Assembly (NCBI RefSeq): GCF_039555535.1
Contig: NZ_CP154630.1
Location: 124,001-188,000 of the forward strand
Direction: 5' to 3'
Source of the DNA: Stenotrophomonas maltophilia
GTDB taxonomy: Bacteria; Pseudomonadota; Gammaproteobacteria; Xanthomonadales; Xanthomonadaceae
DNA length: 64,000 bases
Made by a program: the position numbers and the translations under genes. Below are positions 42,304-62,751 of this stretch, in pieces. Below the pieces are notes generated by a model. It did no database searches. It saw nothing but the letters and a program-made list of their open reading frames with translations, and was not told where the DNA came from. Position 1 is the stretch's first letter, and each line of letters opens with the position of its first letter.

Positions 42304-42339
42304 GGGCAATCGCTTCGATGGGGAAGGTCGTGTGCGGTG

Positions 42340-44766: not shown

Positions 44767-45762
44767 TCACGGTATCTGCGCCTGCGCGCTTTCGCCTGCT
44801 CCGCACGCAGGTTGCCATCCACTTGCTTCCAGCAGCGTTGCAGCGTTTCCAGGCTGGACATTCAGCAGTTTGGCTATGGCGTTGCGCGTGTCGGGCGCGC
44901 GCGCAACGTAGGCATGGGCAATGCGGTAGCCGATCCAGTAGCCGAGATCTCCACGGCGCGCATCGTCGCCGGGGCCGTTGTACAGCCACCTCGAAAGATC
45001 GGTACCCATGCTGTCCTGCAGGAACGCGCGCTCCAGCGCACATTCGCGGCCTTGCGTCCAACGAAGCAGATGCGCGTTGGCCGGTTGCCCGGAGATCAGT
45101 TCGCCCACGTACTCGGCGCCGCCTTCAAGCAACGTCTGATAGAGCAGGGTGGGCTGCGCGACATCGATGCTCGCACCGGGCTGTTGCACGTGCACGTACT
45201 CATGGGCGATCAGGTGCACGAAACGATCGCCGACGTCGGGCTGCATCCAGTCAGCGTTGCACAGCGCTTCCAGTCCGATGACCACGCCTGCTTCGGTGGT
45301 CACGCCACCACTGTTGCCGCGGCCCACCAGCACGGTGACAGGGGGAAAGCGCGCAGACGGCAACAAGGCGCCCAGCTGATCGACGGCAGCGGCGACGCGC
45401 GTGCGGATCGATGGCAATGCTGTCGCGCAGGTTCTCGCTTTCGCAAACAACGCCGGCTTGTCCTGGATGGCACTGGCCAGCCGCTCCATCGAGCCGATAC
45501 GGCTGTCGGTGAAGCTGCGCAGGGCATCCGTACCCGCATCCAGATAGCCGTGTTGCAGTTCATCGGCGCTTGGGCGCCCTTGGTTGGCGTCCAGCACCTT
45601 GAAGAAGCGCGCGACATCGTCCGTCTGCACGACGATGTGCCCGGCAGAAACGATGCGCTCAGCCGCCTGTGCCTGCAGCAGCGCGGCCGGCGAGGCGATC
45701 AAGATCAGTGCCCACGTCAAGCATCGAGCGCGGTGCGTATAAGAAGCCGGCAGCGTAGCCAC
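44767..45762 (-). CDS. Secreted zinc-metalloprotease-like protein (DUF2268-like)
   Basis: 331 residues from GTG 45762. The N terminus is basic then hydrophobic (ARCLTWALILIASPAALLQAQA/AE), a Sec signal. The active-site motif HLIAHEYVHVQQ (HExxH) is followed at ~20 residues by LLEGGAEYVGELISG, where Glu may be the third zinc ligand, and by GYWIGYRIAHAYV, matching predicted Zn-dependent proteases of the DUF2268 type. There is no ribosome binding site before the GTG; the first ATAGTT repeat of the transposon end begins 6 bases away, so the native 5' region may have been displaced by the insertion. Confidence 0.72.
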   Translation of the reverse strand: MATLPASYTHRARCLTWALILIASPAALLQAQAAERIVSAGHIVVQTDDVARFFKVLDANQGRPSADELQHGYLDAGTDALRSFTDSRIGSMERLASAIQDKPALFAKARTCATALPSIRTRVAAAVDQLGALLPSARFPPVTVLVGRGNSGGVTTEAGVVIGLEALCNADWMQPDVGDRFVHLIAHEYVHVQQPGASIDVAQPTLLYQTLLEGGAEYVGELISGQPANAHLLRWTQGRECALERAFLQDSMGTDLSRWLYNGPGDDARRGDLGYWIGYRIAHAYVARAPDTRNAIAKLLNVQPGNAATLLEASGWQPACGAGESAQAQIP

Positions 45763-45767
45763 GTGCC

Positions 45768-45934
45768 CATAGTTAGAGCGCGTTTTGGCCTCATAGTTGG
45801 GTGCAGCCGAGGCTCTACATTCACCGACTATTAGCACCTTGGCCCCATAGTCGGGGCGCTCGTAGCGTAGCTAATTGATATCGAAGGAAATGATTGCATA
45901 GTTGGAGACTTCTTTCATAGCTGAACCAACTATG
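45768..45934 (+). repeat. Array of CATAGTT-type repeats, probable TnsB binding sites
   Basis: Core CATAG(T/C)T occurs at 45768, 45792, 45846, 45897 and 45916, all in the same orientation, several followed by Gs (CATAGTTGGG, CATAGTCGGGG, CATAGTTGGAG). An inverted copy, CCAACTATGGG, is at 45926-45936. A weaker inverted copy, GACTATTAG, is at 45826. Spacing is 19-54 bases. Tn7-family ends carry several spaced TnsB sites pointing inward; a similar ATAGTTGGG core in Tn7 itself is from memory. The stretch 45935-46307 holds no gene I can support. Confidence 0.7.
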
Positions 45935-46307
45935 GGTACGCGAATGAATATCCGCTCTCCAGACCGTGCAGTCTGCTGGCGTCTGCCACCTACCTGGATT
46001 CCGATGCAAGGTTGTGAAGACGTGGCTGAACCTAGTGAGGCAGCACGGATCTCGGATGGACGCAACGCGCAATGCAAGAAGTCGCTAATCAATGTGGCAT
46101 GGACCCACAAATGAAAAGCCACTGTTAGTTCCACTCGCGCAATGGGCTCCAATCTAGCATTCGACTCGTCCGGAGAACGCTCGACGTATTAAGGCTTCAA
46201 GGATTGTAATGGATTGATTTTAAAGGAGGTATAACCATTTATGGCTTGCGAAATGCAGAGGGACTCAACGAGCTTGCAACGAGCATTGGTTTGCGTATGT
46301 TGGAGGA

Positions 46308-46559
46308 ATGAACGCACTTTCCCTGCAAAGAGCGGCACTTGAAGCGTCCTCAGAAGAGGAACTGGCAGACAGGATCGTTGATGAGTCTGGGATCTGTGTT
46401 CGCGTGGGGGATGCCAGGCAGCTACTTGGATTCCGTAGCCTAGATGCAGGTAGACGAGCTGCAGTGCAGGGGCGCTTAGGCATCGAAGCGGTGAACCTTC
46501 CAGGTCGCCGTGGACGTTTGTCCCTTCGGCAGGCACCTATCAAGGAGCCCGTGCAATGA
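46308..46559 (+). CDS. Small protein of unknown function at the transposon end
   Basis: 83 residues preceded by a strong TTGGAGGA box three bases before the ATG. The sequence EELADRIVDESGICVRVGDARQLLGFRSLDAGRRAAVQ has the look of a small helical DNA-binding protein (acidic first helix, Arg-rich second half), but no family is recognised. It lies between the repeat array and tnsAB, on the same strand, and is followed by a terminator, so it is a separate transcript. A role in regulating or aiding transposition is possible but unproven. Confidence 0.55.
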   Translation: MNALSLQRAALEASSEEELADRIVDESGICVRVGDARQLLGFRSLDAGRRAAVQGRLGIEAVNLPGRRGRLSLRQAPIKEPVQ

Positions 46560-46591
46560 GCTAAGTAAGAAAGATCTCTGGGGAGAAGAAA

Positions 46592-46624
46592 CAACAAACC
46601 CTGGCTGGCAGGCCAGGGCTTGTT
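46592..46624 (+). terminator. Hairpin after the small transposon gene
   Basis: AACAAACCCTGGC and GCCAGGGCTTGTT form a 13-position stem with one mismatch and a short loop, 33 bases after the stop at 46559. A T-poor tail follows, so it may be a weak terminator insulating tnsAB. Confidence 0.6.
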
Positions 46625-46740
46625 CGCAGCTAGCGCTTAGTTCCGCGTAGCTGAATCTACTCCCGACCCGTGCTTCTTTCAAGTGCTCGTCAAAGCGGGA
46701 GGGGGCCGTGCAGCCATCTCCCACCATGAGGGAGATGGCA

Positions 46741-49131
46741 ATGACCCCAGATCAGCTGAGGGATCATCTAAGAACGCTAGATCTATCAGTAGAAGATAGG
46801 TCCTTCGCACTCGAGCTCTTTGGCCAGGAACCAGGGCGCAGCGTTGGCGCCTATGCACTGGACAATGTGGTCGTCGACTTCTATTCAAGAAAGTGTCGCG
46901 ATGTTCGCAGGCTGGAAAGCCATACAGTCGAGCAAACATTTGCATATGAGCTAGAAATTGATCCTGACGTCATCTCATATGTTTGCCAGGTCACTTGTCG
47001 TGGCATAAGGCGCGGCAATCATGTGTGCACCGCCCATGCAGACTTCTTTGTGGTTCGACGGTCCTCCGTGGAAATCGTGGAATGTAAGCCCATCTCCAAG
47101 CTCAGCACTCTTGTGGAGAGAAAGCCCGAAGAGTGGGTGCTGGACGGTGGGAAATATCGCAATCTGGTGTATGAGCGATGGGCAGCATCCCATGGGATCG
47201 AGTACAAGATCTGGGCCTCACCCAGCAACATCAGCCGATACCATAGGAACTTGCAGTTCATCTACCAAAACTGGGATGAAGATCTCTCAATGGTGCGCCG
47301 AGAGGGCTTTGCTGCGGTGGAAAAGCAGCTTTACATGGGGCCAAAAAGCATCGCGTTTCTTATGGAAGAGATCCCTTGGTTCAACGCTGGGGTCGCAGCA
47401 GGACTCTTGGCGGATAGGCTAGTCCACGGGCCCATAGGGCACATACCGATTACCGATACGCGCAACTTTCTCTTAAGCCTAAGTCAAGAGCAGGCGGAGG
47501 CGATTGCGGCCGAGTGCTGTAAGAACATCAACAACCTGTATGCCGAAGCTAGCGGCCCAGTTGCGCTCGCAAGTTCAGTTGATGTGGCAAAGGCAGTTGC
47601 AAGGCTGAAGAAGCTTGAATGCCTTGCTCGTGAAGGAAAGCGAGCGACACCCAAGATGAGGAAGTTGGAGGAGCGGGTGAGACTAGCGCGCGCAGAGGGT
47701 CGCAATCCTCTAGATGATCTCATCACCAACTACGCAAAGTGCGGGAACCGATCCAGTCGTCTCACTCACGCGCAATCAGAACTTGTACGCGGAGTCATTG
47801 GCTCACATTGGCTAAAGGGTAAGGTTGCGACGCTAGCCGATCTGTATCGTGAGCTAGCCCTGCAGTGCGAGTGCGCTGGCGTTCCTGTGCCTGGCCGGAA
47901 GGCGCTCGTCAGAAGAGTTCGATCCGTTTCAAGGGGGCAACGTGATCTTGCTGTCGGCGGTAAGCGAAACTATCAAGCAAATAGGCCGCGTTCCGACGCT
48001 CGGGTTAGATCAGGCCAAGCGCTTGCTGTGCACTCTGTCCTGCACATCGATGCAACCAAGGTTGACAACCGAGTCTTTACACAAGAAGACGAAGGGCAGC
48101 AAGACCACTGCCCGGTACTGTACTGCGGCCGTGACGAAGCGTCGTCTAAGGTTATGGCCCATGCCTTTGTCTTCGGTCCCGCTCGGCGCGAAGGGCCACT
48201 AATTTTGCTGAGGAACTATGTGCGCGAGCACGCGAAGCTTCCACACGCAATCGTGATCGATCGAGGCACTGATCTTAAGTCAGCCTTAGGTGATCTCTGT
48301 CGAACCTATGGCATCTCCATACTCACAGTGCCGACAGGCGCGAGTCGCTTCAACTCACAGTGTGAGACGGTTCAAGGGCTTATCAATTCCATGGTCAGCC
48401 ACAAATTGATTGGGAGCACAAAGCCAGATAAAGCCGGTAGAAGTGTCGATGGAAAATTCAAAAGCAGATCGACCGCGCGCCTAGATTTCTCGACCGTAGA
48501 ATCCGAAATTCACCACCTTCTGTACAGCCTGATGCCCGAGATGCCCGTGGATGGCTTCGCAGGTGCGCGAGAGCGATTTGAGAACAGTCAGTTGACTGCT
48601 CCAAACTCTGGAATACCAACGGTTGTAGACGATGACTTCCTATTTCAAACTTCAGTGAAATTGAAATCATGCTCTTATGAAAGAACAAGGGGGATCAGAC
48701 ACTGGAGGAGAAGCTACACGAACGCGGATCTCGCGTCGCGCGCGCATGAAGAGAAGATCCTCAGTGCTCGGCGTGATCCTGAGGATATTTCATTCGTTTG
48801 GATTCAGACCACGAAGAGACGCTACAAGGCATGGTGCTCGAAGGTCTCGGAGATTGGTCACTACTCCGAGCAGGATCGTCACTTCGAGGCAATGTGGGAG
48901 CAGTTCATCACGCCGGATGTTGAGAGCAAGAAGGAGGAGCTGCAGCGTAAGAACTATGAGAGGACGAGCATGGCCAACGCCAGGCAGCGAGCCAATGATA
49001 TGGGGCTAGCAAGTGGAAAGGAAACGCAAGCCCCGCCAAATGCGAGTCGATCGAAGGTTCAAGCGAGATTGGTCGTCAACTTTGATGAGCTCCCCGATCT
49101 CATTGTGGAAGGGGATTCGCATGGACGCTAG
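46741..49131 (+). CDS. tnsAB: Fused TnsA-TnsB transposase
   Basis: 796 residues. ATG 46741 is preferred because GAGGGA lies 7 bases upstream; ATGs at 46735 and 46726 are also in frame. N-terminal part (about 35-190) is a TnsA-type endonuclease that cuts the 5' ends: Glu64 in HTVEQTFAYELEID, Asp101 in AHADFFVV, and ECK (114-116) give the E-D-(E)xK order. The C-terminal part is a TnsB-type DDE transposase: Asp437 in LHIDATKVD, Asp507 in VIDRGTDLKSA, Glu542 in QCETVQGLINS, with exactly 35 residues between the last two. Fusion of the two is known in some Tn7-like families. Cut-and-paste transposition is therefore expected. Confidence 0.9.
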   Translation: MTPDQLRDHLRTLDLSVEDRSFALELFGQEPGRSVGAYALDNVVVDFYSRKCRDVRRLESHTVEQTFAYELEIDPDVISYVCQVTCRGIRRGNHVCTAHADFFVVRRSSVEIVECKPISKLSTLVERKPEEWVLDGGKYRNLVYERWAASHGIEYKIWASPSNISRYHRNLQFIYQNWDEDLSMVRREGFAAVEKQLYMGPKSIAFLMEEIPWFNAGVAAGLLADRLVHGPIGHIPITDTRNFLLSLSQEQAEAIAAECCKNINNLYAEASGPVALASSVDVAKAVARLKKLECLAREGKRATPKMRKLEERVRLARAEGRNPLDDLITNYAKCGNRSSRLTHAQSELVRGVIGSHWLKGKVATLADLYRELALQCECAGVPVPGRKALVRRVRSVSRGQRDLAVGGKRNYQANRPRSDARVRSGQALAVHSVLHIDATKVDNRVFTQEDEGQQDHCPVLYCGRDEASSKVMAHAFVFGPARREGPLILLRNYVREHAKLPHAIVIDRGTDLKSALGDLCRTYGISILTVPTGASRFNSQCETVQGLINSMVSHKLIGSTKPDKAGRSVDGKFKSRSTARLDFSTVESEIHHLLYSLMPEMPVDGFAGARERFENSQLTAPNSGIPTVVDDDFLFQTSVKLKSCSYERTRGIRHWRRSYTNADLASRAHEEKILSARRDPEDISFVWIQTTKRRYKAWCSKVSEIGHYSEQDRHFEAMWEQFITPDVESKKEELQRKNYERTSMANARQRANDMGLASGKETQAPPNASRSKVQARLVVNFDELPDLIVEGDSHGR

Positions 49132-50176
49132 CATCCTGCCCCATTTTCCAGCTGATGAGATGAGCTTCCCTTTCATACCACATCAGCGCTTTCTAACTAC
49201 CCAGCACAGCCTACTGAAATCAGTTTCGAGAGCTCGGCCAGGAGACTTTGTTTGGTTGATAGCGCCCTCCTGGTCAGGAAAGAGCGAGTTGCGTCGGCAG
49301 CTGTTGCCTGAGCTCGGAGGAAATCCCCAACTTTGGCCAACAGGCCACTTGCCGCTGATCTCCGTAAGGGCAATCCTGAATCAGGGCGACAAGTTCAATC
49401 CGAAAGACTTCGCTTTGCGCCTACATCAGGAAATAACTGAGCCCGACACTAGCTGGACTAATGCTATGGAAACCGGTGGCGATCCTGACCAAACGCACGT
49501 GGCCGCAGAGCGGCGAGCCTCTTCAGTGTTCTGGCGTGAAGTGCGCGCGAGAACAGCGGAGAGAGACCTTCGTCTTTCGTTTGAGCGCATGTCTAGAATT
49601 CGCGGATTGAGGTACATCGTCATAGAGGAGGCTGCGAACATCTGCAGGGTTCCGAAGAGTCAGAGTTCACGCAACTACATGCTTGGCATCATGGCGCTTG
49701 TTGAAGAAATTGGTTGTGTGGCGATCATGATAGGAACCCATGAAGCGTCCACGCTCTATGAGGATTCCCAAGAGGTGTTCAATAGATCTGACGTTCTCTA
49801 TATGCGTCCGTACGGTCTGAATGACAATGACGACCTGCGATCCTACGCCTCTCTGATCAAGGCGATCGGCAAGGGATTTCCACTTTCAAAAGGTAGCCTT
49901 CTCCAGGAAAACCTAGAGCTCATTGCTCTCAATGGAGGAGGAATTTTTGGCCCAACTCTGCGGTACTTGATGCGGGCGAATGAAGAGCGTTGTCGCAATG
50001 GTTCCAATACCATCGAGCTCGGGCATCTGCGAGCAGCGTCTGGAACCGAAAGGAACCACAGGCTGCTCTGGGGAGAGATAGACGCGTTCAATAGACTTGC
50101 CGATGGCAAGCGTTCTCTACGCCTAGCGGACTTCTTGACCATCAAGGGCTCATTGCCTAGCGAAGGCGATCTGTGA
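49121..50176 (+). CDS. tnsC: TnsC/TniB-type AAA+ ATPase
   Basis: 351 residues, starting at ATG 49121 inside the end of tnsAB (11-base overlap), with AAGGGGA upstream. Walker A is LIAPSWSGKSEL; Walker B is YIVIEEA; a sensor-like IGTHEAST follows. It is the regulator that joins the target-selection protein to the transposase and activates it upon ATP binding. The 4-base overlap with tniQ at its end shows one operon. Confidence 0.88.
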   Translation: MDASILPHFPADEMSFPFIPHQRFLTTQHSLLKSVSRARPGDFVWLIAPSWSGKSELRRQLLPELGGNPQLWPTGHLPLISVRAILNQGDKFNPKDFALRLHQEITEPDTSWTNAMETGGDPDQTHVAAERRASSVFWREVRARTAERDLRLSFERMSRIRGLRYIVIEEAANICRVPKSQSSRNYMLGIMALVEEIGCVAIMIGTHEASTLYEDSQEVFNRSDVLYMRPYGLNDNDDLRSYASLIKAIGKGFPLSKGSLLQENLELIALNGGGIFGPTLRYLMRANEERCRNGSNTIELGHLRAASGTERNHRLLWGEIDAFNRLADGKRSLRLADFLTIKGSLPSEGDL

Positions 50177-51510
50177 GGATGGAACCACCAAGATGGACGG
50201 TACTTCCACCTCTTGAGCTTCGTGATGCAGGTACTCCCTGGACAGAGTCGCTCAATGGATACGCAAATCGCTTGGCTAAGCTCAGCGGAATTTCGTGGTG
50301 CAAGCTGCTTCAGCTTATCGACACCCACTCGTCGGAGGTGCCGTCTAGATACATTGATCAGCGCAGACTCGATGGGCTCGGGCCTGTGTCAGTACGGCGT
50401 GCGCGTTCACTAGAGAAGCTGACTGGGCAGTCACTTGTCGGTGCTACTTTGTATGGACTCTCAGAGATCGTCTCCTCAAGGGCAGCGAGCTGGAGTCGAC
50501 ACGCCGCTTGGTGTCCGATTTGCATCGGAGCTAGCGATATGGACGAGAGCGCCACAGAGAGGCTGATTTGGAGCTTCGATGCTTATTCTCACTGCTCGCT
50601 GCACGACGCCAGGATTGAGAACAGCTGTTCCAATTGTGGACTCGGGAAGTTGAAGAGCATTGCATTGAGAAAGTGCCCATCCTGCGGAGATCGCCTAGAC
50701 AGGCGCACACGCTTTGACTCGGCGAACCCGACTCAGCGCTGGATCAATCAGTGCATAGAGGAACTGATCTCTTGGTGCTCAAATCATCCAAATCAGAGGC
50801 TTGAACTCTCGAACTTGGAGGTGTTTATAGAGGCAGTCGGGGCTAGAGGCGAGCGGCGAAAGTTGGATTACCGACCTCCTGCACGCTTGCCTGCAAGCTA
50901 TTCTGACTACAAGAGCTGGACTAGAGTGAATTGCTTCAGACTCTTTAGAAGGAATGATCCGAGTCGATTAGAGTTCAATGAGCTACTCAATCTATCGGCA
51001 AATCAGTGCGTTTCTGTCTTGGACATTCTTCTCCAGCCTATCGAATCTGCGTCCGAACTTCTGCCTGGAATTGGATCGAATCCGGAGCTCCCACTAGGAC
51101 GCGGTCGAGTGGCAGATGAGCGAAGAGAGTTTGCTCGATTGATTGACGCTCTGCTTGGTGATGACCAGTGCGTCCTTCCATCCTTCCAGGTGCTTGCGCA
51201 GCTGAGCGGAAGACGAGGGTCGTTCAAGTCTGGCCTACCGCACCACCACGCTCACTATGCGGTCCGGCTAAGGCGGCAACAGATGATGATTCGCGGTGTT
51301 TCGCGAAGAACGATAAACAGAGCATTTCGTCTTGCATGTCAGTTGAAACTTTCGCTACAAGGACAGCTGCTGATATCCGAAGCCGTGGCAAAACGAATCC
51401 ACATCGAGATGGATGTCGCATCGAACATCGTGCGATCCGCGGAACTTGCCTGTAGCCTTCTTCTCCCAGTCGGAGGGATGAAGGGCGTAGCTCGTATACC
51501 CAATCTATGA
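50173..51510 (+). CDS. tniQ: TniQ/TnsD-family target-selection protein
   Basis: 445 residues from GTG 50173, overlapping the tnsC stop (GTGA); ATG 50179 is the alternative. The N-terminal TniQ domain has ETPWTES-like DAGTPWTESLNGYANRLAKLSG and a zinc-binding region AWCPICIG ... HCSLHDARIENSCSNCG ... LRKCPSCGDRL. The C-terminal half is helical and basic and would read the target DNA. It is longer than minimal TniQ proteins and near TnsD in size, so insertion at one preferred site is more likely than random or RNA-guided insertion (inference). Confidence 0.85.
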   Translation: MRMEPPRWTVLPPLELRDAGTPWTESLNGYANRLAKLSGISWCKLLQLIDTHSSEVPSRYIDQRRLDGLGPVSVRRARSLEKLTGQSLVGATLYGLSEIVSSRAASWSRHAAWCPICIGASDMDESATERLIWSFDAYSHCSLHDARIENSCSNCGLGKLKSIALRKCPSCGDRLDRRTRFDSANPTQRWINQCIEELISWCSNHPNQRLELSNLEVFIEAVGARGERRKLDYRPPARLPASYSDYKSWTRVNCFRLFRRNDPSRLEFNELLNLSANQCVSVLDILLQPIESASELLPGIGSNPELPLGRGRVADERREFARLIDALLGDDQCVLPSFQVLAQLSGRRGSFKSGLPHHHAHYAVRLRRQQMMIRGVSRRTINRAFRLACQLKLSLQGQLLISEAVAKRIHIEMDVASNIVRSAELACSLLLPVGGMKGVARIPNL

Positions 51511-51663: not shown

Positions 51664-52293
51664 TCAGAGCTGTCCAAGATCTTGGACGACCGATCGCCCT
51701 TGGCGCAGGTCGATTGCCAGCAGGCGACCACCTGCGACCTGCCGGCCAGCGGCGCTGTTTAACCATGCCGCTTGAATCCTGCCCGCCTCAATTACCGCAT
51801 CCGCCGCAAAGCTGTCAGGCATGGCCCGCAAGGGCTCGCCGGGTGACGCCAGACCTCCGACCAAGGGTTGCACCACCGTTGCTGCGGTGCTGTTGGACTT
51901 GGCGTAGGCGGTGGCTATCATTCGTCCGGCGCGTGGGCACCACCCTCCAAGTACCAGTTCGGTGCCTAGGGTTTGCCTCGACAGGCCTGCTTCAAGGGCT
52001 GCCTTCTCGTACTCAGGCCAAAGCTGGTCGATCACCAATGTCAGTTCCTTGGCTAGCTGCTCCATTGTGAAGTCCGCCCGAAAGCTGGCCTGCAGCATAA
52101 GTGCGTAGATCCGAAGGAAAAATTGAGTGCTACCGCGGCAGGCAAGCACCACGTTGTGTTGTGGAATCAATAAGAACTTCGCGCCGGACGATTTGGCGCC
52201 GGTGAGTGCATCCTCGGCGAGAGTGTCAACTGCAACCAGCATCCGTTCAGGGCTAAGCAGGACGTTCAGGATACTCAAGTGCGCGCGCTCCAC
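51664..52293 (-). CDS. Unknown protein with a possible Ntn-hydrolase-like fold
   Basis: 209 residues from GTG 52293 (a TTG at 52278 would start SILNVLLSPERMLVAVD). The N-terminal part VLLSPERMLVAVDTLAEDALTGAKSSGAKFLLIPQHNVVLACRGSTQFFLRIY alternates strands like HslV/proteasome-type subunits, in which 'D..A' and a Lys-bearing KFLLIP/K...I segment recur. No N-terminal Thr nucleophile can be shown. It opposes the surrounding cargo genes. The fold is a guess from pattern; function unknown. The 150 bases between tniQ and this gene hold nothing I can support. Confidence 0.6.
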   Translation of the reverse strand: MERAHLSILNVLLSPERMLVAVDTLAEDALTGAKSSGAKFLLIPQHNVVLACRGSTQFFLRIYALMLQASFRADFTMEQLAKELTLVIDQLWPEYEKAALEAGLSRQTLGTELVLGGWCPRAGRMIATAYAKSNSTAATVVQPLVGGLASPGEPLRAMPDSFAADAVIEAGRIQAAWLNSAAGRQVAGGRLLAIDLRQGRSVVQDLGQL

Positions 52294-52810: not shown

Positions 52811-53098
52811 ATGAGTGACGTAGATGAATGGCTGACAAGGGCCTCGGCTGCCACTCGGCCCTGCGGCAATGAGCAGGCCACTGATGTGCTAGTTCAGCGC
52901 TTGTCCCAAGAAGCTTCCCCTTCGCAATGGGCCGGTAAGCGAGAGTTCCGCCGGGCACTCGCATGCGCCGCGCTCGCGGCGGTGCTTACCTGCGGAGGAG
53001 TAGGCTCCGCCTTCTTTGTCACCCAGGCACCCTCGCGCCCGACATGGGTCGCGGCCCCAGCTTCCATGTCCCCATACGCTCTACTGGTGGAACGCTGA
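52811..53098 (+). CDS. cnrY: CnrY/NccY-type anti-sigma factor
   Basis: 95 residues, the same length as CnrY of Cupriavidus from memory. A soluble N-terminal part (SDVDEWLTRASAATRP ... DVLVQRLSQEASPSQWAGKREFR) would bind the sigma factor; one membrane helix follows (ALACAALAAVLTCGGVGSAFFV), then a short periplasmic tail. It tethers CnrH at the membrane until CnrX senses nickel or cobalt. The stop overlaps the cnrX start (TGATG). Confidence 0.82.
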   Translation: MSDVDEWLTRASAATRPCGNEQATDVLVQRLSQEASPSQWAGKREFRRALACAALAAVLTCGGVGSAFFVTQAPSRPTWVAAPASMSPYALLVER

Positions 53099-53544
53099 TG
53101 GCAATCGGACCCCTCATGAGGCTGCCGCTGGCAACAATCGCTGGCGCCATCATTGGCGTCGTGTGCGCGCTGGCTATCGGCTGGACCTGGCACTCGCTCA
53201 ATCCTGGGCACAGCGATCTCCATGAACGCCTTCACGCCGTGGTGCCTCTGGACGACTCGGAGAAGCAGATCCTCCAGGCCAAGGAACAGCTGTTCGCAAC
53301 AAGGCGAGGTGAGATCGAAGCGCGCCTGCGGATTGCCAACCGCCAGCTGGCGGACGCCATCGCGGCTGACCCCAAATGGAACCCCCAGGTGGAACGTGCA
53401 AGTCGTGAGGTGGAGCGGGCTGCGGGCGATCTCCAGCGCATCACGCTCGAGCATGTGTTCGAGATGCGCGAGGGCTTGAAACCCGAGCACCGGCCGGCCT
53501 ACGACAAGGCACTCCTTGAAGCACTTCGCACCGACTCTCCCTGA
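53098..53544 (+). CDS. cnrX: CnrX/NccX-type periplasmic nickel/cobalt sensor
   Basis: 148 residues, one N-terminal helix (LATIAGAIIGVVCALAIGW) and a periplasmic helical hairpin. The metal ligands reported for CnrX (His42, His46, Glu63, His119, Met123) are all present at the same residue numbers: HSDLHERLH, AKEQLF, and HVFEMREG. That match, with equal length, makes this one of the best supported calls of the island. Metal binding is thought to release CnrH from CnrY. It overlaps cnrY by one base and is 14 bases from cnrH. Confidence 0.92.
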   Translation: MAIGPLMRLPLATIAGAIIGVVCALAIGWTWHSLNPGHSDLHERLHAVVPLDDSEKQILQAKEQLFATRRGEIEARLRIANRQLADAIAADPKWNPQVERASREVERAAGDLQRITLEHVFEMREGLKPEHRPAYDKALLEALRTDSP

Positions 53545-53558
53545 GCCACACAAACGTT

Positions 53559-54122
53559 GTGACCATCGAGGACGACAACAACTGGGCAGTTGAAGCTGCG
53601 GCAGGTAATGCTGAGGCCTTCGCTCGCCTGGTCCGCCGTCACTCGCCAGCAATCAAGCAGATGGTTCGAGGCATGGGCCTGCCCGAAACCGACGTCGATG
53701 ATGTCGTGCAGGAGACATTCGTTGCCGCTTGGCGAGGCCTGTCAGAGTACGATCCGACGCGCTCGGTACTTCCCTGGCTGATGCGTATTGGAATCAACAA
53801 GGTTCGTGATACGCAACGGTTTCGACGCGTCCGCCATTTCCTGTTCCGGGCCAAGCCTTTGGATGACGAGGAAGGACGCGCCCTGCATTCCGAGCAGGCC
53901 GGGCCAGAGCAGGTTGCCGGCTCTCAGCTTGAGCTCGCAGAAGTAAGAAGGGTTCTCAACACGATCGACCCGAGCCTGCGTGAAGCCCTGGTTCTGACTG
54001 CCTTCGTCGGCCTTTCCCAGGTTGAAGCAGCTTCCGCCCTGGGTATCAGTCTCAAAACAATAGAGGGTCGCGTACTGAGAGCACGGGCCAAGCTGACAGA
54101 TGCACTGAGCCGCGGGAAATAA
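53559..54122 (+). CDS. cnrH: CnrH/NccH-type ECF sigma factor
   Basis: 187 residues from GTG 53559. Sigma-2 region: AFARLVRRHSPAIKQMVRGMGLPETDVDDVVQETFVAAWRGL; sigma-4 region: TIDPSLREALVLTAFVGLSQVEAASALGISLKTIEGRVLRARAKL. This ECF sigma directs RNA polymerase to the cnrYXH and cnrCBA promoters once freed from CnrY. The 87 bases between it and cnrC contain AAATAAATTTTCG and the palindrome CGCGCAGGCCGCG, where the cnrC promoter should lie. Confidence 0.92.
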   Translation: MTIEDDNNWAVEAAAGNAEAFARLVRRHSPAIKQMVRGMGLPETDVDDVVQETFVAAWRGLSEYDPTRSVLPWLMRIGINKVRDTQRFRRVRHFLFRAKPLDDEEGRALHSEQAGPEQVAGSQLELAEVRRVLNTIDPSLREALVLTAFVGLSQVEAASALGISLKTIEGRVLRARAKLTDALSRGK

Positions 54123-54209: not shown

Positions 54210-55433
54210 ATGAAACCATCATTGCTTGCCCTGACGGTGATGCTGGCCCTGACCAGTATCTCTGCGGCCTATGCCTCGGACGCCCCGAACTTCAGCGCGT
54301 TGCTCGAGCAGAGCAGGGCCCAATCCCCCTTCCTTCAGGAAAAGGGGTTCGACACAGCTGCCGCTGCGGGCGAAGCCCGCCAAGCGCGAGCGCTACGTAA
54401 CCCCACCATTGATGCCCTCGCAGAGAATCTCAACGCTCCCCCCAGCAATGGCGCGAGCCAGCGGCAGACGACCTACACCATCAGCCAGCCACTCGAGATC
54501 TTTGGCCAACGTGGGGCTCGAATCCAGGCGGGAGAGAAAGGGCTGCAGGCGGCCGAAGCTCGCCAGCACCAGGCACAAGTCGAATTCGCCGCAGCCTTGG
54601 CTGTTGCCTACGCGTCTTCCGAGGCTGGGCTGATACGGCGCAACATTGCTGCCGAAGATGTTGATCGCGCCAGAGGCGACCTGAAGGCAGCTCAGGCGCT
54701 GGTTGACGCAGGAAAGGAGGCCAGCCTGCGCGTAGCACAAGCCCAGGCCGGCTTGAGCTCAGCAGAAGCGATTGCCGCCTCAAGAGAGGCAGAGGCGGCT
54801 GCAGCTCTCGAGCAACTGTCAGTACTGGCGGGAAGAGCTGAACCCTACTCAGGCACGTCCGAGTCACTCCTGGTGCGCGAGTGGGTTGCGCCCGCAATTG
54901 CGAACGTCGATTCGGCATCTGTCCTGTCTGCGAAGGCAGACGTCGATGCGAGCGATGCGGTTCTGCGCACTGAACGCTTCAAGCGGGCACCGGACCTTAA
55001 CCTCACCGCAGGCCGTCGCAACTTCGCCGCCGGTGGGGACGCATTGGTCGTCGGCGTGTCTCTGAGCATCCCATTGTTTGACCGGAACAGCGGCGGGATC
55101 AGCGCGGCTCGAGCACGGAGCGACGCCGCCCGTGCTCGATTGGATGCAGCACGCCTCCAGAGCCAGGCGGACCGTGCGACTGCGCTTGCGCGTGTTGACG
55201 CCGCCAAGCGAGGACTGATCGCTGCCTCCAAGGGAGAGGAAGCAGCCACGGAAGCCTACCGAATGGCGCGCTTGGGATACGAGGCCGGTAGAACCCCACT
55301 GGTTGAGCTGCTGCTTAGCCGTCGCACGCTGACGGACGCGAGGCTGAGCGTGGTGGATGCACGACTCGCACGCGTTGCCGCCTACGCATCGCTCGCCGTG
55401 GCCAGCGGTCAGATTGCCTTTGGAGACATGTAG
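54210..55433 (+). CDS. cnrC: Outer-membrane channel of the Ni/Co efflux complex (CnrC/NccC)
   Basis: 407 residues with a signal peptide (MKPSLLALTVMLALTSISAAYA/SD). TolC-like coiled-coil protein of the CzcC class: repeated LRNPTIDALAENLN, QPLEIFGQRGARIQAGEKG and RAPDLNLTAGRR segments, duplicated architecture, and long Ala/Glu/Arg helices. It forms the exit duct of the tripartite pump. The stop is directly adjacent to the cnrB start. Confidence 0.92.
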   Translation: MKPSLLALTVMLALTSISAAYASDAPNFSALLEQSRAQSPFLQEKGFDTAAAAGEARQARALRNPTIDALAENLNAPPSNGASQRQTTYTISQPLEIFGQRGARIQAGEKGLQAAEARQHQAQVEFAAALAVAYASSEAGLIRRNIAAEDVDRARGDLKAAQALVDAGKEASLRVAQAQAGLSSAEAIAASREAEAAAALEQLSVLAGRAEPYSGTSESLLVREWVAPAIANVDSASVLSAKADVDASDAVLRTERFKRAPDLNLTAGRRNFAAGGDALVVGVSLSIPLFDRNSGGISAARARSDAARARLDAARLQSQADRATALARVDAAKRGLIAASKGEEAATEAYRMARLGYEAGRTPLVELLLSRRTLTDARLSVVDARLARVAAYASLAVASGQIAFGDM

Positions 55434-56609
55434 ATGAAGAGAAGTATTCCGGCTGTTAACACCCTGACGATGATCGGCGTGGCTACCTTGGCGCTTGGCG
55501 CGGGATTTGGCATTGCACGCTTATCCGCCCCTTCAGAGACGGTGGTCGACCCCGCGAAAGACGAAGCCAGCGCCAGTGCGCCGGCGGAGGCGGAGGCAGC
55601 TCAGGAAGTCGCGATTCCCAAGGAGTATCTTGCCGCTGCGGGGATCTCGGTGGAGCCCGTCACTTCCGCTCAGGTAGCGGCGAATATCACCGCATCGGGT
55701 TCGGTCGTGGCAATCCCCGGTGGTGAGGCCGTCGTGGTGGCACGTGCGGCCGGTAACGTCACCGATGTCATCCGGCAGGTGGGCGACAAGGTGAAGAAGG
55801 GCGAAGTGCTGGCACGCGTAGCCAGCCCTGATGGGGCCCGTATTGCGGCTGACCTTCGTGTGGCCAGCGCCAGCCTCTCCCTCGCCGAAAAGAACGTCAA
55901 GCGCGATGAGTCGTTGCTCGCACAGGGCGTGCTGGCACGACAAGAGGCTGAGGCGAGTCGCGCCGCCTATCTCACAGCGCAAGCAGAAGCACAACGCGCT
56001 GCCCTGGTGGCACGCACCGCCAATGTGGATGGAGGAGGTAGCGTCAACGTCATCAGCCCTATCGATGGAACCATCAGCAGCTCGCAAGTGACTCTGGGCG
56101 CTTTCGTCGAGCCGCAGGCCTCCCTTTATAGGGTCACAGGTTCCAATGGCGTGGAGATTCAGGCCTCCGTTCGTGCGGGTGACACCGGTCGGATCAAGGC
56201 CGGCGACAGCGCGTCCATTACCCGCTCCGACGGAAGCGTCACCTCAGGAAAGGTCCGTTCAGTTGCTGCCGCCGTAGGTGGGCTGACAAGGGCTGCCACA
56301 GTCGTAATCACCCCGAGCGCAGAGGCGAACGGATTGGTTGTGGGTGACGGTGTGCAGGTCCGGCTGGTCACCGCTTCCGGATCGGGTGAGGGGCTGTCTG
56401 TCTCGGAAGAGGCGGTCCAGAACATCGACGGAAAAGACGTCCTCTTCGTCAGAACCAGTAAGGGGTTCACTGCACAGCCGGTCTTCATTGGCCTCCGTAG
56501 CGGTGGTATGGCGCAGATCCTTTCTGGCGTCACTGCGGGAACCCCGGTTGCTACCCGTAATGCGTTTCTGGTGAAAGCCGAGATGAAAAAGTCGGGCGGA
56601 GACGAGTAA
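55434..56609 (+). CDS. cnrB: Periplasmic adaptor of the Ni/Co efflux complex (CnrB/NccB)
   Basis: 391 residues, an RND membrane-fusion protein. N-terminal signal/anchor helix (TMIGVATLALGAGFGIARL), then an Ala/Glu-rich linker, barrel-sandwich lipoyl halves (VVVARAAGNVTDVIRQVGDKVKKGEVLARVASPDGARI), a short hairpin, and the C-terminal domain with AGTPVATRNAFLVKAEMKKSG. It has no His/Met-rich metal-chaperone head. The stop overlaps the cnrA start (TAATG). Confidence 0.92.
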   Translation: MKRSIPAVNTLTMIGVATLALGAGFGIARLSAPSETVVDPAKDEASASAPAEAEAAQEVAIPKEYLAAAGISVEPVTSAQVAANITASGSVVAIPGGEAVVVARAAGNVTDVIRQVGDKVKKGEVLARVASPDGARIAADLRVASASLSLAEKNVKRDESLLAQGVLARQEAEASRAAYLTAQAEAQRAALVARTANVDGGGSVNVISPIDGTISSSQVTLGAFVEPQASLYRVTGSNGVEIQASVRAGDTGRIKAGDSASITRSDGSVTSGKVRSVAAAVGGLTRAATVVITPSAEANGLVVGDGVQVRLVTASGSGEGLSVSEEAVQNIDGKDVLFVRTSKGFTAQPVFIGLRSGGMAQILSGVTAGTPVATRNAFLVKAEMKKSGGDE

Positions 56610-59600
56610 TGATCGAGCAAGTACTCACGGGTGCCGTACGGCACCGCTGGCTGGTTCTGTTCATCACACTGGTGATTGCGGTGATCGGCGGGTGGCAACT
56701 GAACCTGCTACCGATCGACGTGACTCCGGATATCACGAACAAGCAGGTCCAGATCAACACCGTCATCCCGACGCTGAGTCCAGTGGAGGTCGAGAAGCGC
56801 GTTACCTACCCGATCGAGACCGCGATGGCAGGACTTCGGGGCGTCGCGAACACCCGGTCGTTCTCGCGCAACGGCTTCAGCCAGGTCACGGTGATCTTCG
56901 ATGAGAGCGCAGACCTCTACTTCATGCGCCAACAGGTCACCGAGCGTCTGACTCAGGCTCGGCCCCAGTTGCCGGAGGGTGCCGAACCACTGATGGGCCC
57001 GGTTTCGACCGGGTTGGGCGAAGTATTCCACTACAGCGTTGAATTCACCCACCCAGATGGCAAAGATGCCCCGCGAAATGATGGTAAGCCTGGCTGGCAA
57101 AGCGACGGTTCGTTCCTGACTGATCAAGGGGAACGGCTGACGGACAACATGGCACGTCTGGCCTACTTGCGCACAGTCCAGGACTGGATTGTGCGGCCTC
57201 AGCTGCGCACGACGCCAGGCGTAGCAGACGTCGACAGCCTCGGCGGCTACGTCAAGGAGTATGTCGTTGAGCCCAATGCGAGCAAGCTCGCGGAGTACGG
57301 GTTCTCCTATACCGACCTGGCCGACGCGTTGCAGGATGCCAATCTGTCGGTCGGAGCAGACTACATCCAGAGGTCGGGCGAGTCCTATCTGGTGCGCGCA
57401 GACGCCCGCATCCGCTCCGTGGACGAGATTGCCCGTGCCGTTGTGGGCAATCGCAACGGAGTTCCCGTAACGGTGGGTGACGTCGCACGTGTGGTCGTTG
57501 ACGGTGAGCTCCGCCGCGGTGCTGCCAGCCGCAATGGATACGAGACTGTCGTCGGCAGTGCACTCATGCTGGTTGGCGCCAACAGCCGAACTGTGGCGGC
57601 GGCGGTGGGTGACAAGCTGCAGGAGATCGGCAAGACCATGCCGCCGGGCGTGACGATTGTTCCCACCTTGGACCGATCCCAGCTGGTTGTCGCAACGATC
57701 AAGACCGTCGCCAAGAACCTGGCCGAAGGCGCTCTTCTAGTCGTGGTCATCCTGTTTGCATTGCTCGGAAACTGGCGAGCTGCTGTCATTGCTGCATTGG
57801 TGATTCCGTTGTCCCTGCTGATCACCGCGATCGGCATGAACAAGCTCGGGATCTCTGGCAACCTGATGAGCCTGGGTGCGCTCGACTTTGGCCTGATCAT
57901 CGACGGCGCGGTCATCATCGTCGAGAACGCACTGCGCCGCCTGGCAGAGCGACAGCATGCACTTGGGCGCCCGCTCAATCTATCGGAGCGCCTGCATGAA
58001 ACGATCGCCTCGTCCAAGGAGATGGTCCGCCCGACCGTATATGGGCAGGCGGTCATCTTCCTGGTCTTCGTGCCCTGCCTGACCTTCCAGGGCGTCGAGG
58101 GGAAGATGTTCTCTCCGATGGTCATTACCCTGATGCTGGCGCTGGCCTCTGCATTCGTGCTCTCCCTCACTTTCGTTCCGGCGATGGTGGCGGTCATGCT
58201 CAAGGGCCACATTTCCGAGAAGGAAGTACGGGTGGTAGCTGCCACCAAGAGCCGCTATCAGCCGATGCTTCGCAGCGCAATCCGCCAACCCATGCCCTAC
58301 CTGGCCGGTGGTCTTGGCGTCCTGGTGGCCGGCGTTGTGGCCTTTGGCTTTGTGGGTCGGGAGTTCATGCCCACATTGGATGAGCAGAATCTCAACCTGT
58401 CCTCCGTTCGCATCCCGTCCACATCGATCGAGCAGTCCGTCGCCATCGACCTTCCTCTTGAGAAGGCACTGATGACGTTGCCGGAGGTACAGACGGTGTA
58501 CTCCAAGGCCGGTACCGCAAGCCTGGCCGCAGATCCCATGCCGCCCAATGCGTCCGACAACTACGTGATCCTCAAGCCCAAGGACCAATGGCCGGATGGA
58601 GTGAAGACCAAAGAGCAGGTGATCGAGAGGATTCGAGAGAAGACAGCCTTTCTTGTTGGTAACAACTATGACGCCACCCAGCCCATCGAGATGCGCTTCA
58701 ATGAGCTGATCGGCGGCGTTCGTAGCGACGTTGCAGTCAAGATCTATGGCGAAGACCTGACGGCGCTTGCCGGCAGCGCTGACAAGATTGCGGCCGTCCT
58801 CAAGAAGATTCCGGGCGCATCGGATGTCCGTGTGGCGCAGACGGGAGGCTTCCCGACCTTTGACATGGCGTTCGACCGGGCCGCGATCGCCCGTTACGGA
58901 CTCACCGTCAAGGAAGTGGCCGACACAGTGTCTGCTGCTCTGGCAGGTCGCATGGCGGGCCAGATCTTCGAAGGTGATCGGCGCTTCGACGTGGTGATTC
59001 GTCTGCCCCGTGTGGACCGCAGCGATCTCGATGTACTGGGAGCCGTTCCGGTTATGCTGCCGCCAGGCAGTCAGGAAGGCCGTCAGTCTGTTCCGCTTCG
59101 TGAATTGGTCAGTTTCCGCTTCACACAGGGTCTGAACGAAGTGAGCCGCGACAATGGCAAACGTCGAATCTATGTGGAAGCGAATGTGGTCGGGCGTGAC
59201 CTGGGTAGCTTCGTTGACGACGCCAAGGCGGCTATTGCCCAGCAGGTGCAGTTGCCCACGGGTTCCTGGATCGAATGGGGCGGGCAGTTCCAGAATCTGC
59301 AGGCAGCAACGAAGCGACTGGCGATTATTGTGCCTCTCTGCTTCATTCTCATTGCAGCCGTCCTCTACATGGCGATTGGCAACGGTTTGCTGACAGGTAC
59401 GGTACTGACTGCGGTGCCACTTGCTCTGGCCGGTGGATTCTTCGCATTGGCGTTGAGAGGAATCCCCTTCTCGATCTCAGCTGCTGTGGGCTTCATCGCG
59501 GTATCTGGTGTCGCGGTGCTCAACGGCCTGGTTCTGATCTCCGCGATCAAGAAACGCCTGCACGAGGGGCTTCCGCCAGATGAGGCGGTCGAACTGGGTG

Positions 59601-59854
59601 CAATGGAGCGCGTTAGACCGGTTCTTATGACCGCGCTGGTTGCCTCCCTGGGCTTCGTCCCGATGGCGATTGCAACAGGTACGGGCGCCGAAGTGCAGAA
59701 GCCACTGGCTACAGTGGTTATCGGGGGTCTTGCCACGGCAACCGTACTGACGCTGTTCGTGCTGCCTGCGCTGTGCGGGCTGGTACTCCGAAGAACTGCG
59801 CGCAGGAAGGCCGCGGGCATTGAAGACCCCTTGCCGGTACCCGAAGTCGATTGA
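56609..59854 (+). CDS. cnrA: Nickel/cobalt RND efflux pump (CnrA/NccA, HME type)
   Basis: 1081 residues with twelve membrane helices and two large periplasmic loops. It uses the proton gradient to drive divalent cations out through CnrBC. The helix-4 signature is DFGLIIDGAVIIVEN, the DFGxxDGAxxxVEN form assigned to HME pumps for divalent cations (Co, Zn, Cd, Ni) and not Cu/Ag. With CnrX-type sensing, Ni and Co are the likely substrates. Length is near CnrA (1076). Confidence 0.94.
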   Translation: MIEQVLTGAVRHRWLVLFITLVIAVIGGWQLNLLPIDVTPDITNKQVQINTVIPTLSPVEVEKRVTYPIETAMAGLRGVANTRSFSRNGFSQVTVIFDESADLYFMRQQVTERLTQARPQLPEGAEPLMGPVSTGLGEVFHYSVEFTHPDGKDAPRNDGKPGWQSDGSFLTDQGERLTDNMARLAYLRTVQDWIVRPQLRTTPGVADVDSLGGYVKEYVVEPNASKLAEYGFSYTDLADALQDANLSVGADYIQRSGESYLVRADARIRSVDEIARAVVGNRNGVPVTVGDVARVVVDGELRRGAASRNGYETVVGSALMLVGANSRTVAAAVGDKLQEIGKTMPPGVTIVPTLDRSQLVVATIKTVAKNLAEGALLVVVILFALLGNWRAAVIAALVIPLSLLITAIGMNKLGISGNLMSLGALDFGLIIDGAVIIVENALRRLAERQHALGRPLNLSERLHETIASSKEMVRPTVYGQAVIFLVFVPCLTFQGVEGKMFSPMVITLMLALASAFVLSLTFVPAMVAVMLKGHISEKEVRVVAATKSRYQPMLRSAIRQPMPYLAGGLGVLVAGVVAFGFVGREFMPTLDEQNLNLSSVRIPSTSIEQSVAIDLPLEKALMTLPEVQTVYSKAGTASLAADPMPPNASDNYVILKPKDQWPDGVKTKEQVIERIREKTAFLVGNNYDATQPIEMRFNELIGGVRSDVAVKIYGEDLTALAGSADKIAAVLKKIPGASDVRVAQTGGFPTFDMAFDRAAIARYGLTVKEVADTVSAALAGRMAGQIFEGDRRFDVVIRLPRVDRSDLDVLGAVPVMLPPGSQEGRQSVPLRELVSFRFTQGLNEVSRDNGKRRIYVEANVVGRDLGSFVDDAKAAIAQQVQLPTGSWIEWGGQFQNLQAATKRLAIIVPLCFILIAAVLYMAIGNGLLTGTVLTAVPLALAGGFFALALRGIPFSISAAVGFIAVSGVAVLNGLVLISAIKKRLHEGLPPDEAVELGAMERVRPVLMTALVASLGFVPMAIATGTGAEVQKPLATVVIGGLATATVLTLFVLPALCGLVLRRTARRKAAGIEDPLPVPEVD

Positions 59855-59951: not shown

Positions 59952-61286
59952 ATGATCGAGGTCCTACGCTTTCCAACATTCAGGAACCTGTTCGCTGCGC
60001 AGGTTATCGCGCTGATCGGCACGGGCTTGGCTACCGTGGCGCTCTCTCTTTTGGCCTATGACTTGGCGGGGGCTGAGGCGGGCGCTGTGCTAGGTACGGC
60101 TCTGGCAATCAAGATGATTGTCTACGTGCTGTTGGCCCCTCTGTCCGGAGCGATCGTCCCGGCAAATCTACGCAAACCGGTGCTTATTGCCCTCGACCTG
60201 GTGCGGGCGGGCGCGGCGCTTTGTCTGCCGTTCGTCAACCAGATCTGGCAGGTGTACCTGCTCATTGCCTTGCTGCAGTCGGCCTCGGCGTGCTTCACCC
60301 CTCTGTTCCAGTCGACGATCCCGGAAATCCTGAAGGAGGAACGCGACTACACCCGAGCACTGTCCCTGTCGCGCCTGGCCTATGACCTGGAGAGCCTGCT
60401 GAGTCCCGCGTTGGCCGCTGCTCTGCTGACGCTGATCAGCTTCCACGGCCTGTTCGCTGGTACGTCCGTAGGCTTCGTGATATCCGCCATCTTGGTGTTC
60501 TCAACTGCATTCCCCTTCGTTGCTCCGTCCCTAAGAAAGGACGGTCCCTACGCCCGCGCGATTCGAGGAATGCGGATCTACCTGAAGACGCCCAGGCTGA
60601 AAGGGTTGCTTGCCCTTAATCTGTGTGCGGCCGCCGGCGGCGCCATGGTGTTCGTGAACACCGTCGTTGTGGTGCGCAACGTTCTCGGCGGAGCAGAGTC
60701 ACAGGTGGCATGGGCGCTGGCAGCTTTCGGTGGCGGCTCGATGCTGACGGCGCTTGTCCTCCCCAAGGTTCTCGATCGGGTGGCTGACAGGCGCGTGATG
60801 CTCTCCTCAGCCCTTGCAATGTGCATCGTACTTGTGACCCTCGGGCTTACCTGGCTGCTCTCGCCCTCCTCCATAGGTTGGCCCATCGTGCTCGCCGGCT
60901 GGGCATTGTTGGGGATGAGCTATGCGGGGCTGGTGACTCCTGGCGGCAGACTGCTGCGGCGATCAGCGGAATCCACCGATCTGCCATTCCTGTTCGCAGC
61001 GCAGTTCTCTCTCTCCCACGTGTGTTGGCTGATTGCCTACCCTCTGGCTGGAGCCGTGGGTGCGAAGTTTGGAATGCCAGTGGCGATCATGGCACTGGCA
61101 GTAGTCGGCATCGCCGGATTCGTGTTCGCCTGGAGAATCTGGCCCGCCCATGACCCGGACGAGATCTCCCACGGTCACGACGATCTGGCTGCGGACCATC
61201 CCCACTGGGCGGAACACGCTTCTTCCAACGGCAAGCACTCACATCGGTATGTCATCGACGACGTGCACCCTCGTTGGCCTGGATGA
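59952..61286 (+). CDS. nreB: MFS nickel exporter, NreB-like, with His-rich tail
   Basis: 444 residues, twelve hydrophobic helices, MFS-type (LFAAQVIALIGTGLATVALSLLAYDL at the start). The C-terminal ~45 residues are rich in His and Asp (HDPDEISHGHDDLAADHPHWAEHASSNGKHSHRY), as in NreB of nickel-resistant Achromobacter, which exports nickel with such a tail. ATG 59952 has AGAGGTGAG upstream. Position directly after a cnr/ncc operon repeats the ncc-nre arrangement known from nickel-resistance plasmids. Confidence 0.88.
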   Translation: MIEVLRFPTFRNLFAAQVIALIGTGLATVALSLLAYDLAGAEAGAVLGTALAIKMIVYVLLAPLSGAIVPANLRKPVLIALDLVRAGAALCLPFVNQIWQVYLLIALLQSASACFTPLFQSTIPEILKEERDYTRALSLSRLAYDLESLLSPALAAALLTLISFHGLFAGTSVGFVISAILVFSTAFPFVAPSLRKDGPYARAIRGMRIYLKTPRLKGLLALNLCAAAGGAMVFVNTVVVVRNVLGGAESQVAWALAAFGGGSMLTALVLPKVLDRVADRRVMLSSALAMCIVLVTLGLTWLLSPSSIGWPIVLAGWALLGMSYAGLVTPGGRLLRRSAESTDLPFLFAAQFSLSHVCWLIAYPLAGAVGAKFGMPVAIMALAVVGIAGFVFAWRIWPAHDPDEISHGHDDLAADHPHWAEHASSNGKHSHRYVIDDVHPRWPG

Positions 61287-61998: not shown

Positions 61999-62751
61999 AT
62001 GATCCCCAGTTCTGAATCCGGGGCGCTCTCGCGCGTCCTTCTCCAACCCCCACTACGGTCGCACTGGCCGCGAACTCTACTCGCACTGCTTTCCCTGTTC
62101 ATGCTGCTACTCACAGCTGACGGGGCGTTGGCTCACGCGATCGCCGAAGGCGACAAGGGCTACATCCAGGAAATATCTGGAGTAAATCTGATCGCATTCG
62201 CCTATCTGGGCGCAAAACACATGGCCACCGGCTATGACCACATCCTGTTCCTCCTGGGCGTGGTGTTCTTCCTGTACCGGATGAAGCATGTCGCGCTGTA
62301 TGTGACGCTGTTCGCGATCGGGCACTCCACAACGATGCTGCTGGGTGTGCTGTTCAACGTGGGCATCAACAGCTACCTGATCGACGCGATCATTGGTCTG
62401 TCTGTGGTCTACAAGGCCCTGGACAATCTGGGCGCCTACCAGCGTTGGTTCGGCTTCCAGCCAAACACAAAGGTTGCGACGTTGATCTTCGGCCTGTTCC
62501 ACGGCTTTGGTCTGTCAACCAAGATCATCGAGTACGACATCTCACCCGATGGTCTGTTGCCCAACCTGCTCGCGTTCAACGTCGGCGTGGAGATCGGCCA
62601 GATCCTCTCGCTTGGCGCGATTCTGATCGCAATGGGCTACTGGCGCCGCACGCCCAGCTTCTTCAAGCACGCCTACACCGCCAATGCCGCCATGCTCTGC
62701 GCCGGATTCATTCTGATCGGCATGCAGCTCACTGGCTACTTCGTTTCCTGA
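61999..62751 (+). CDS. HupE/UreJ-like membrane protein
   Basis: 250 residues with a signal-like N terminus (LLALLSLFMLLLTADGALA/HA) and about six helices. HupE/UreJ_2 marks: YLGAKHMATGYDHILFLLGVVFFLYR, FAIGHSTTMLLGVL, IFGLFHGFGLSTKI and FNVGVEIGQI. HupE/UreJ proteins are nickel or cobalt permeases or accessory proteins; direction of transport is not fixed by sequence. Location beside Ni/Co exporters suggests metal handling. Start at ATG 61999; no strong ribosome site is seen, and ATG 62101 would cut the signal. Confidence 0.82.
   Translation: MIPSSESGALSRVLLQPPLRSHWPRTLLALLSLFMLLLTADGALAHAIAEGDKGYIQEISGVNLIAFAYLGAKHMATGYDHILFLLGVVFFLYRMKHVALYVTLFAIGHSTTMLLGVLFNVGINSYLIDAIIGLSVVYKALDNLGAYQRWFGFQPNTKVATLIFGLFHGFGLSTKIIEYDISPDGLLPNLLAFNVGVEIGQILSLGAILIAMGYWRRTPSFFKHAYTANAAMLCAGFILIGMQLTGYFVS

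Follow-up and report, generated by a model that had tools for sequence, protein, structure and literature searches.

What kind of transposon carries the fused TnsA-TnsB operon in this stretch of the Stenotrophomonas maltophilia chromosome, and what directs it to the place where it sits? The window, by which we mean the whole stretch of 64,000 nucleotides that was analysed, spans bases 124,001-188,000 of a genome that is a single contig of 4.83 Mb (RefSeq assembly GCF_039555535.1, contig NZ_CP154630.1). A sequence-only reading had described a Tn7-like core in it, with a fused TnsAB, a TnsC ATPase and one TniQ protein, and had expected a 5-bp target duplication. We consider it very probable that this core belongs to a complete, site-specific transposon of the Tn7 superfamily, from the fused-TnsAB branch, which is directed by TniQ to DNA upstream of a porin gene and duplicates 4 bp of its target.

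The core operon (46741-51510) consists of a fused TnsA-TnsB, a TnsC-like ATPase and a single TniQ, with the gene ends overlapping:

46741..49131, + strand: tnsAB, fused TnsA endonuclease and DD(35)E transposase, 796 aa
49121..50176, + strand: tnsC-like AAA+ ATPase, ATG start, 351 aa, 11-bp overlap with tnsAB
50173..51510, + strand: tniQ/tnsD-like target selector, 445 aa, TniQ domain at residues 24-146

The tnsAB frame is open from 46708 (46708-49131), and the ATG at 46741 is its likely start, in agreement with the start and length of the homologue in Stenotrophomonas sp. ISL-67. TniQ, which has zinc-ribbon-like cysteine pairs, is the sole operon protein that Pfam names above its cut-off (1.4e-10). 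The TnsC-like protein gives only AAA_22, below the cut-off, the Pfam scan recognised neither TnsA nor TnsB in the 46708-49131 frame, and the NCBIfam scan had no name for any of the three core proteins. Because Pfam recognised neither half, the call of a TnsA-TnsB fusion rests on a match to a solved structure and on an alignment. Two stretches of the protein, 23-202 and 339-581, match PDB chain 9bw1_M, an 'Integrase' of 898 aa (E 6.2e-21), and cover the TnsA part and the TnsB part, respectively. On the TnsA side E75, D112 and K127, and on the TnsB side D448, D518 and E553, all numbered from 46708, are invariant in 45/45 aligned sequences; we assign their roles by analogy with Tn7. The spacing from D518 to E553 is exactly 35 residues, as the predicted DD(35)E transposase demands. 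The TnsC-like protein matches the TnsC of 8fcu (2.2e-6), and TniQ matches the TniQ of 8fcu (1.9e-8) and the TnsD of 8v32 (1.2e-7); entry 9bw1 has its TnsC and TnsD chains in common with these two. We take all three entries to be the type I-B2 system PmcCAST. The transposase, endonuclease, ATPase and TniQ-domain protein of a Tn7-like core are thus borne out by these matches and by the invariant catalytic residues, and the nearest solved relative by sequence, 9bw1, fits the earlier claim that the fused-TnsAB branch includes relatives of CRISPR-associated types.

The interval first proposed, 45755..51510, began one base from the true left junction but stopped far short of the right one. The element runs for 28,170 bp, from 45756 to 73925 in window coordinates (genome 169,756-197,925), so that its right end lies about 9.9 kb beyond the window. 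The terminus TAGCCACGTGCCCATAGTT is found at both ends, and the left junction reads as follows:

45752..45755, no strand: left copy of the target duplication AGCG (its right counterpart, at genome 197,926-197,929, lies beyond the window)
45756..45934, + strand: left transposon end, 5'-TAGCCACGTGCCCATAGTT and six CATAGTTGG-like motifs

The six motifs lie at 45768+, 45792+, 45824-, 45846+, 45897+ and 45926-, three more occupy genome positions 197,860-197,913 at the right end, and AACTATG is clustered in 4 and 3 copies at the two ends. We presume that the CATAGTTGG-like motifs are TnsB sites, so that the ends carry the repeated, if putative, TnsB-type motifs of a Tn7-like element. They resemble the Tn7 site ATAGTTGGGA, and the end arrays share a ATAGTTGG core with Tn7 TnsB-type sites. 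The element ends in 5'-TAG, not in the TGT/ACA terminus that is typical of Tn7-like elements without being universal among them.

Comparison with related genomes delimits the element at both ends and shows an empty site; the contrary outcome, no discrete element, did not occur. In L021, the closest relative that lacks the element, the site is ATGGCACTGCTGCCGGC; here the sequence is ATGGCACCGCT, then the element, then CGCTGCCGGC. Once one AGCG is taken away, the sequence differs from the empty site of L021 at a single base across the 18 bp that span the junction, and the flanks overlap by 4 bases on the + strand. A second insertion of the same element, in D457 (G075/L076; 99.7% identical over 26 kb), has CGTG on both flanks, again 4 bp, with the empty locus L030 as reference. 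By reading, both empty-site pairs have substitutions nearby and no difference in length. The expected 5-bp duplication, which a 2024 review calls characteristic of all Tn7 relatives, was not found in either of these independent copies, and a 5-bp reading fails by the same outer base in both. Because of its 4-bp duplication we class the element as a variant branch and not as a standard member. Among the part of the literature matches that was surveyed, with subscription journals largely uncovered, no 4-bp target duplication was found for a Tn7 relative, nor any title or abstract opening on this element; one candidate paper joining 4-bp, TSD (target-site duplication) and TnsB was discarded, as its 4 bp refers to the size of a mutation.

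Other members of the family were examined with an end-finder, a base-weighted score applied to 41 of 42 TnsAB loci (G701 has no left flank). Eleven of the 42 were resolved and 31 were not, the latter including G001b, G014, G412 and G000b, a distant cousin in the same genome as our element, and the counts that follow concern resolved elements only. The ranking of ends ignored duplications, which of the top pairs are true ends was judged by eye, and G001a and G361 were kept despite having no exact repeat. Two other routes to the ends were abandoned: an inverted-repeat score with motif counts was swamped by G+C-rich noise, and comparison of near-identical pairs gave module edges, not ends. An exact 4-bp repeat flanks seven of the eleven (G000, the present element, with G075, G608, G649, G269b, G036 and G657), an exact 5-bp repeat flanks two (G026 and G250), and G001a and G361 each agree at 3/4 bases. 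When flanks were cross-paired between different elements, 1/110 pairs matched at 4 bp and 1/110 at 5 bp.

Could this nevertheless be an ordinary Tn7-like element with a 5-bp duplication, its 4 bp arising from a misplaced end or from later mutation? The exact 5-bp repeats that the same method returned for G026 and G250 speak for this, as do G001a, which can be read as 5 bp, and the imperfect flanks of some 4-bp cases: the left flank of G608 is the end of a neighbouring element, and that of G649 is, by reading, a cut coding-like stretch. Both empty-site pairs, however, show a flank overlap of exactly 4 bp, a 5-bp reading requires the same outer base to have changed in the G000 and D457 copies alike, and chance matches between flanks are as rare as the cross-pairing indicates. 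Neighbouring ends bear out the repeat length in two elements. In G657 an adjacent element end is spaced by 4 bases, AAAG, the same as those after its own right end, whereas in G026 two abutting ends are spaced by exactly 5 bases, GCTTG (G026:C1:4,607,761-4,607,799). We therefore regard a 5-bp origin as fairly improbable, and retain a 4-bp duplication. In G036, deleting one 4-bp copy restores, by reading, a perfect 10-bp terminator-like stem beside tRNA-Gln. For G269b, a search for an empty site in 27 genomes of its genus gave 5 matches and none across both flanks, and four outgroup plasmid elements showed no clean duplication. At G608:C2:87,864-87,898 the final 3 bp of the neighbour's end are shared with the duplication. 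The left flank of G649 briefly resembles a neighbouring end, which had suggested a tandem end; this was dropped, as the resembling bases are part of the coding-like stretch.

A TnsAB tree (IQ-TREE, 45 sequences) groups the element with ISL-67 (100/100) and then with G001a (100/99), all three falling in a 31-row branch (100/97). All four rows of this branch that have an exact repeat (G000, G608, G649 and G269b) have one of 4 bp, and G001a and G361 have none; G075 is not a row of the tree. In the sister branch (11 rows, 100/98) are G036 and G657 with 4 bp and G026 and G250 with 5 bp, and the fewest changes of duplication length on the tree are two. TnsAB relatives of either branch occur in 25/395 genomes of the family (E 1e-20) and 10/398 of the order (1e-60), and in the class sample at 1e-60 only in this genome among 369; the samples overlap. 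Elsewhere in the chromosome (G000:C1:4,270,480-4,274,305) lies another gene for a fused TnsAB, accompanied by a TniQ of its own, which belongs to the sister branch with the tRNA-side elements; a third TniQ gene, in a 508-aa frame, is at 2,414,926.

What, then, marks the target? The insertion was first placed next to a predicted protease gene and not glmS, and the element does cut such a gene:

44767..45751, - strand: host DUF2268 protease gene, cut by the insertion

The protease does not mark the site, however: no intact copy flanks the elements of G001 or G052 (the left side of ISL-67 was not seen). What stays constant is a stretch of conserved non-coding DNA ahead of a porin gene (TIGR04273, OmpO/Ax21, 4e-97), which reads ...CCCTGAATATTGAACTGA...TTCAGGGAACT. 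From the element end to GGGAACT the distance is 15 bp in G000, 14 in G075, 17 in G052, 17 in G001a and 13 in ISL-67. Five insertions from three TnsAB lineages, 39-100% identical, thus lie 13-17 bp from the same TTCAGGGAACT. As in Tn7-like elements, they keep a set distance from a conserved site in the chromosome, though that site is upstream of ompO/ax21 and is not attTn7 downstream of glmS. In ISL-67 the site-side end and tnsAB are on different contigs and are linked by similarity of end sequence only. The anchor is present and unoccupied in 16 of the 29 loci L021-L049; the remaining 13, which include distant protease paralogues and D457, are without it in the fetched stretch. A hairpin sought in the target region was no better than in shuffled sequences (z -0.5). 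The protease gene is hit incidentally, its start codon falling at that distance in some species. The insertion cuts it at codon 3-4, and the element end (45756-45768) supplies, by reading, an in-frame GTG with nearly the same first residues, so that the cut gene could still yield a nearly normal N terminus.

The common location might instead reflect ancestry or flank recombination, the element being a decayed remnant in a shared hotspot. Decay is seen in other copies. TnsAB of D457 has lost residues 230-359, with about 1.25 kb of other sequence in their place (L076 / G075:C1:165,745-166,995), and that copy is probably non-autonomous; the G052 copy is 89-90% identical in TnsAB over residues 1-568 and truncated at about residue 564. 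In the present genome, by contrast, the three open reading frames (ORFs) are open, the TnsAB catalytic residues are kept, the ends match and the repeat is exact. Duplications and exact positions also differ between copies, and TnsAB identity falls to 64% in ISL-67 and 39% in G001a. The G000 and D457 insertions are independent of each other, because they share the anchor but differ in exact base and in duplication. We think a shared remnant very improbable, and recurrent homing the better account of the location.

The resolved members of the element's branch all lie upstream of ompO, padR or ntrC. The ends of G608 and G649 precede a PadR-family gene by 97 and 96 bp, respectively. Those of G269b and G361 lie immediately ahead of ntrC, at 23 and 22 nt from a TGCAC-N7-GTGCA palindrome, which we take to resemble an NtrC site. 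Four sister-branch members lie beside tRNA sequence: in the right flank, ARAGORN finds a tRNA-Met that starts at base 26 in G026 and a tRNA-Gln that starts at base 25 in G036, and in G250 and G657 a partial tRNA-like sequence was seen at the flank by eye. By sequence, the C-terminal parts of the sister-branch TniQ proteins agree best between elements with like targets: G026 and G657, both at tRNA-Met-like sequence, score 154 bits, against 115 for G036 and G657, unlike the TnsAB tree, which joins G036 with G657. For the TniQ of the present element, the best other match of the C-terminal part is to that of G001a at the same site, and it is weak (34 bits).

The placing of right ends upstream of ompO/ax21, padR and ntrC, close to that palindrome in the last case, also suits a different arrangement, in which the site is recognised through a host protein that occupies the porin operator and TniQ is an adaptor and not the reader of DNA. 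TniQ is known to partner other selectors, as PMC10293859 describes; the same paper ties TniQ proteins of more than 400 aa to direct target choice in loci with two TniQ/TnsD proteins, and the 445 aa found here fall within that range. The operon shows no recognisable partner gene. We hold such an adaptor role to be quite improbable, and favour a TniQ that itself selects the porin-upstream site.

Several observations weigh against the reading of a TniQ-directed element with a 4-bp duplication. The flanks of G001a, GTAC and CTAC, give no exact 4-bp repeat, and from inner ends GACGGG the flanks become TACTA, which is 5 bp. No second end was located for the ISL-67 element. The tns operon faces the target in G000 and away from it in G001a (G001:C11:226,969 and 250,794). 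The C-terminal part of TniQ, about 260 residues, matched no family and no recognised DNA-binding family, and its 34-bit match to G001a is closely followed by one of 29 bits to G414.

Between the core operon and the right end the element carries metal-efflux cargo, of which the window contains the following:

51664..52293, - strand: ORF of 209 aa, no family
52963..53544, + strand: Metal_resist family protein (PF13801, 1.6e-20)
53559..54122, + strand: ECF sigma factor
54210..59854, + strand: three genes for an outer-membrane factor, an adaptor and a CusA/CzcA-type RND pump
59952..61286, + strand: MFS transporter with a His-rich tail
61999..62751, + strand: HupE/UreJ_2 membrane protein

To the right of the window (L015:6-9182) follow a second RND operon, also of CusA/CzcA type, a second HupE/UreJ_2 gene and an AAA ATPase that gives only partial matches to defence ATPases; the other cargo ORFs have no family. 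No Cas family was recognised in the 17 non-core ORFs of the whole element (16 cargo ORFs and one of 83 aa before tnsAB), shorter ORFs being unscanned and arrays not searched for. The earlier statement that no Cas gene is present thus holds for the ORFs scanned up to the right end, including the part beyond the window, where Cas genes further right in the element had been the outcome to watch for. In the ISL-67 relative, Gabija GajA and GajB genes adjoin tnsAB (L077:4837-9119). About 2 kb left of the element, at 41800-43415 of the window, lie genes that look by eye like an arsenic cluster (ArsR-like, phosphatase-like and ArsH-like).

The element is more unusual than first noted, both in its 4-bp duplication and in having its target upstream of a gene; no CRISPR part was recognised in it. 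With the CRISPR-associated transposons of types I-B2 and I-D it shares the fused TnsAB, TnsC and TniQ/TnsD. It differs from them in its non-tRNA target and its 4-bp duplication, and in that no Cas family was recognised among the ORFs scanned, Cascade cas genes and a guide array being the mark of those types. It also has one TniQ and not two, as the other two TniQ matches in the genome lie elsewhere. Tn7 itself (glmS, TnsABCDE) is alike in core chemistry, by homology, and in recurrent site-specific insertion, but here TnsA and TnsB are fused, the site is upstream of a gene, the ends are TAG, the duplication is 4 bp, and no TnsE was found among the ORFs scanned in the element. Insertion of Tn6022 into comM likewise cuts a coding region (Table 1 of PMC11406308); that element has separate TnsA and TnsB and a TnsF partner, according to PMC10293859. 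Non-TGT ends are also reported for McCAST (I-D) and some I-F3 elements in passages of PMC11406308 that do not mention a 4-bp duplication for them; these elements are RNA-guided.

We suggest the following course for transposition. TnsAB would bind the CATAGTTGG arrays, pair the ends and excise the element, its TnsA half cutting at the 5' strands and its TnsB half joining the 3' strands, as homology implies. The C-terminal part of TniQ, whose role we infer from the recurrent use of the site, would recognise the conserved DNA upstream of ax21/ompO and, through TnsC, would set the element 13-17 bp beyond TTCAGGGAACT. Strands joined 4 bp apart would then leave the 4-bp duplication that the flanks display. 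The findings are consistent with target choice by TniQ alone, as the sequence-only reading had proposed.

For the wider family, we are evenly divided over a broader proposition: that a fused-TnsAB branch in the order of this genome joins target strands 4 bp apart and has a TniQ tuned to 5' regulatory DNA (porin, PadR, NtrC) and not to gene ends or tRNAs, possibly reading operators or bound regulators. If that is true, stagger length could evolve within the Tn7 superfamily, because elements of both lengths, 4 bp and 5 bp, occur in the sister branch. The 5-bp stagger has been treated as an invariant of the superfamily, and a 4-bp branch offers natural pairs, such as G657 and G026, for finding the determinant of stagger in TnsB. 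Protein-read attachment sites would gain a new kind if an element homes to DNA upstream of a gene by means of a single, CRISPR-free TniQ; the sequence that is recognised is already outlined by five natural insertions.

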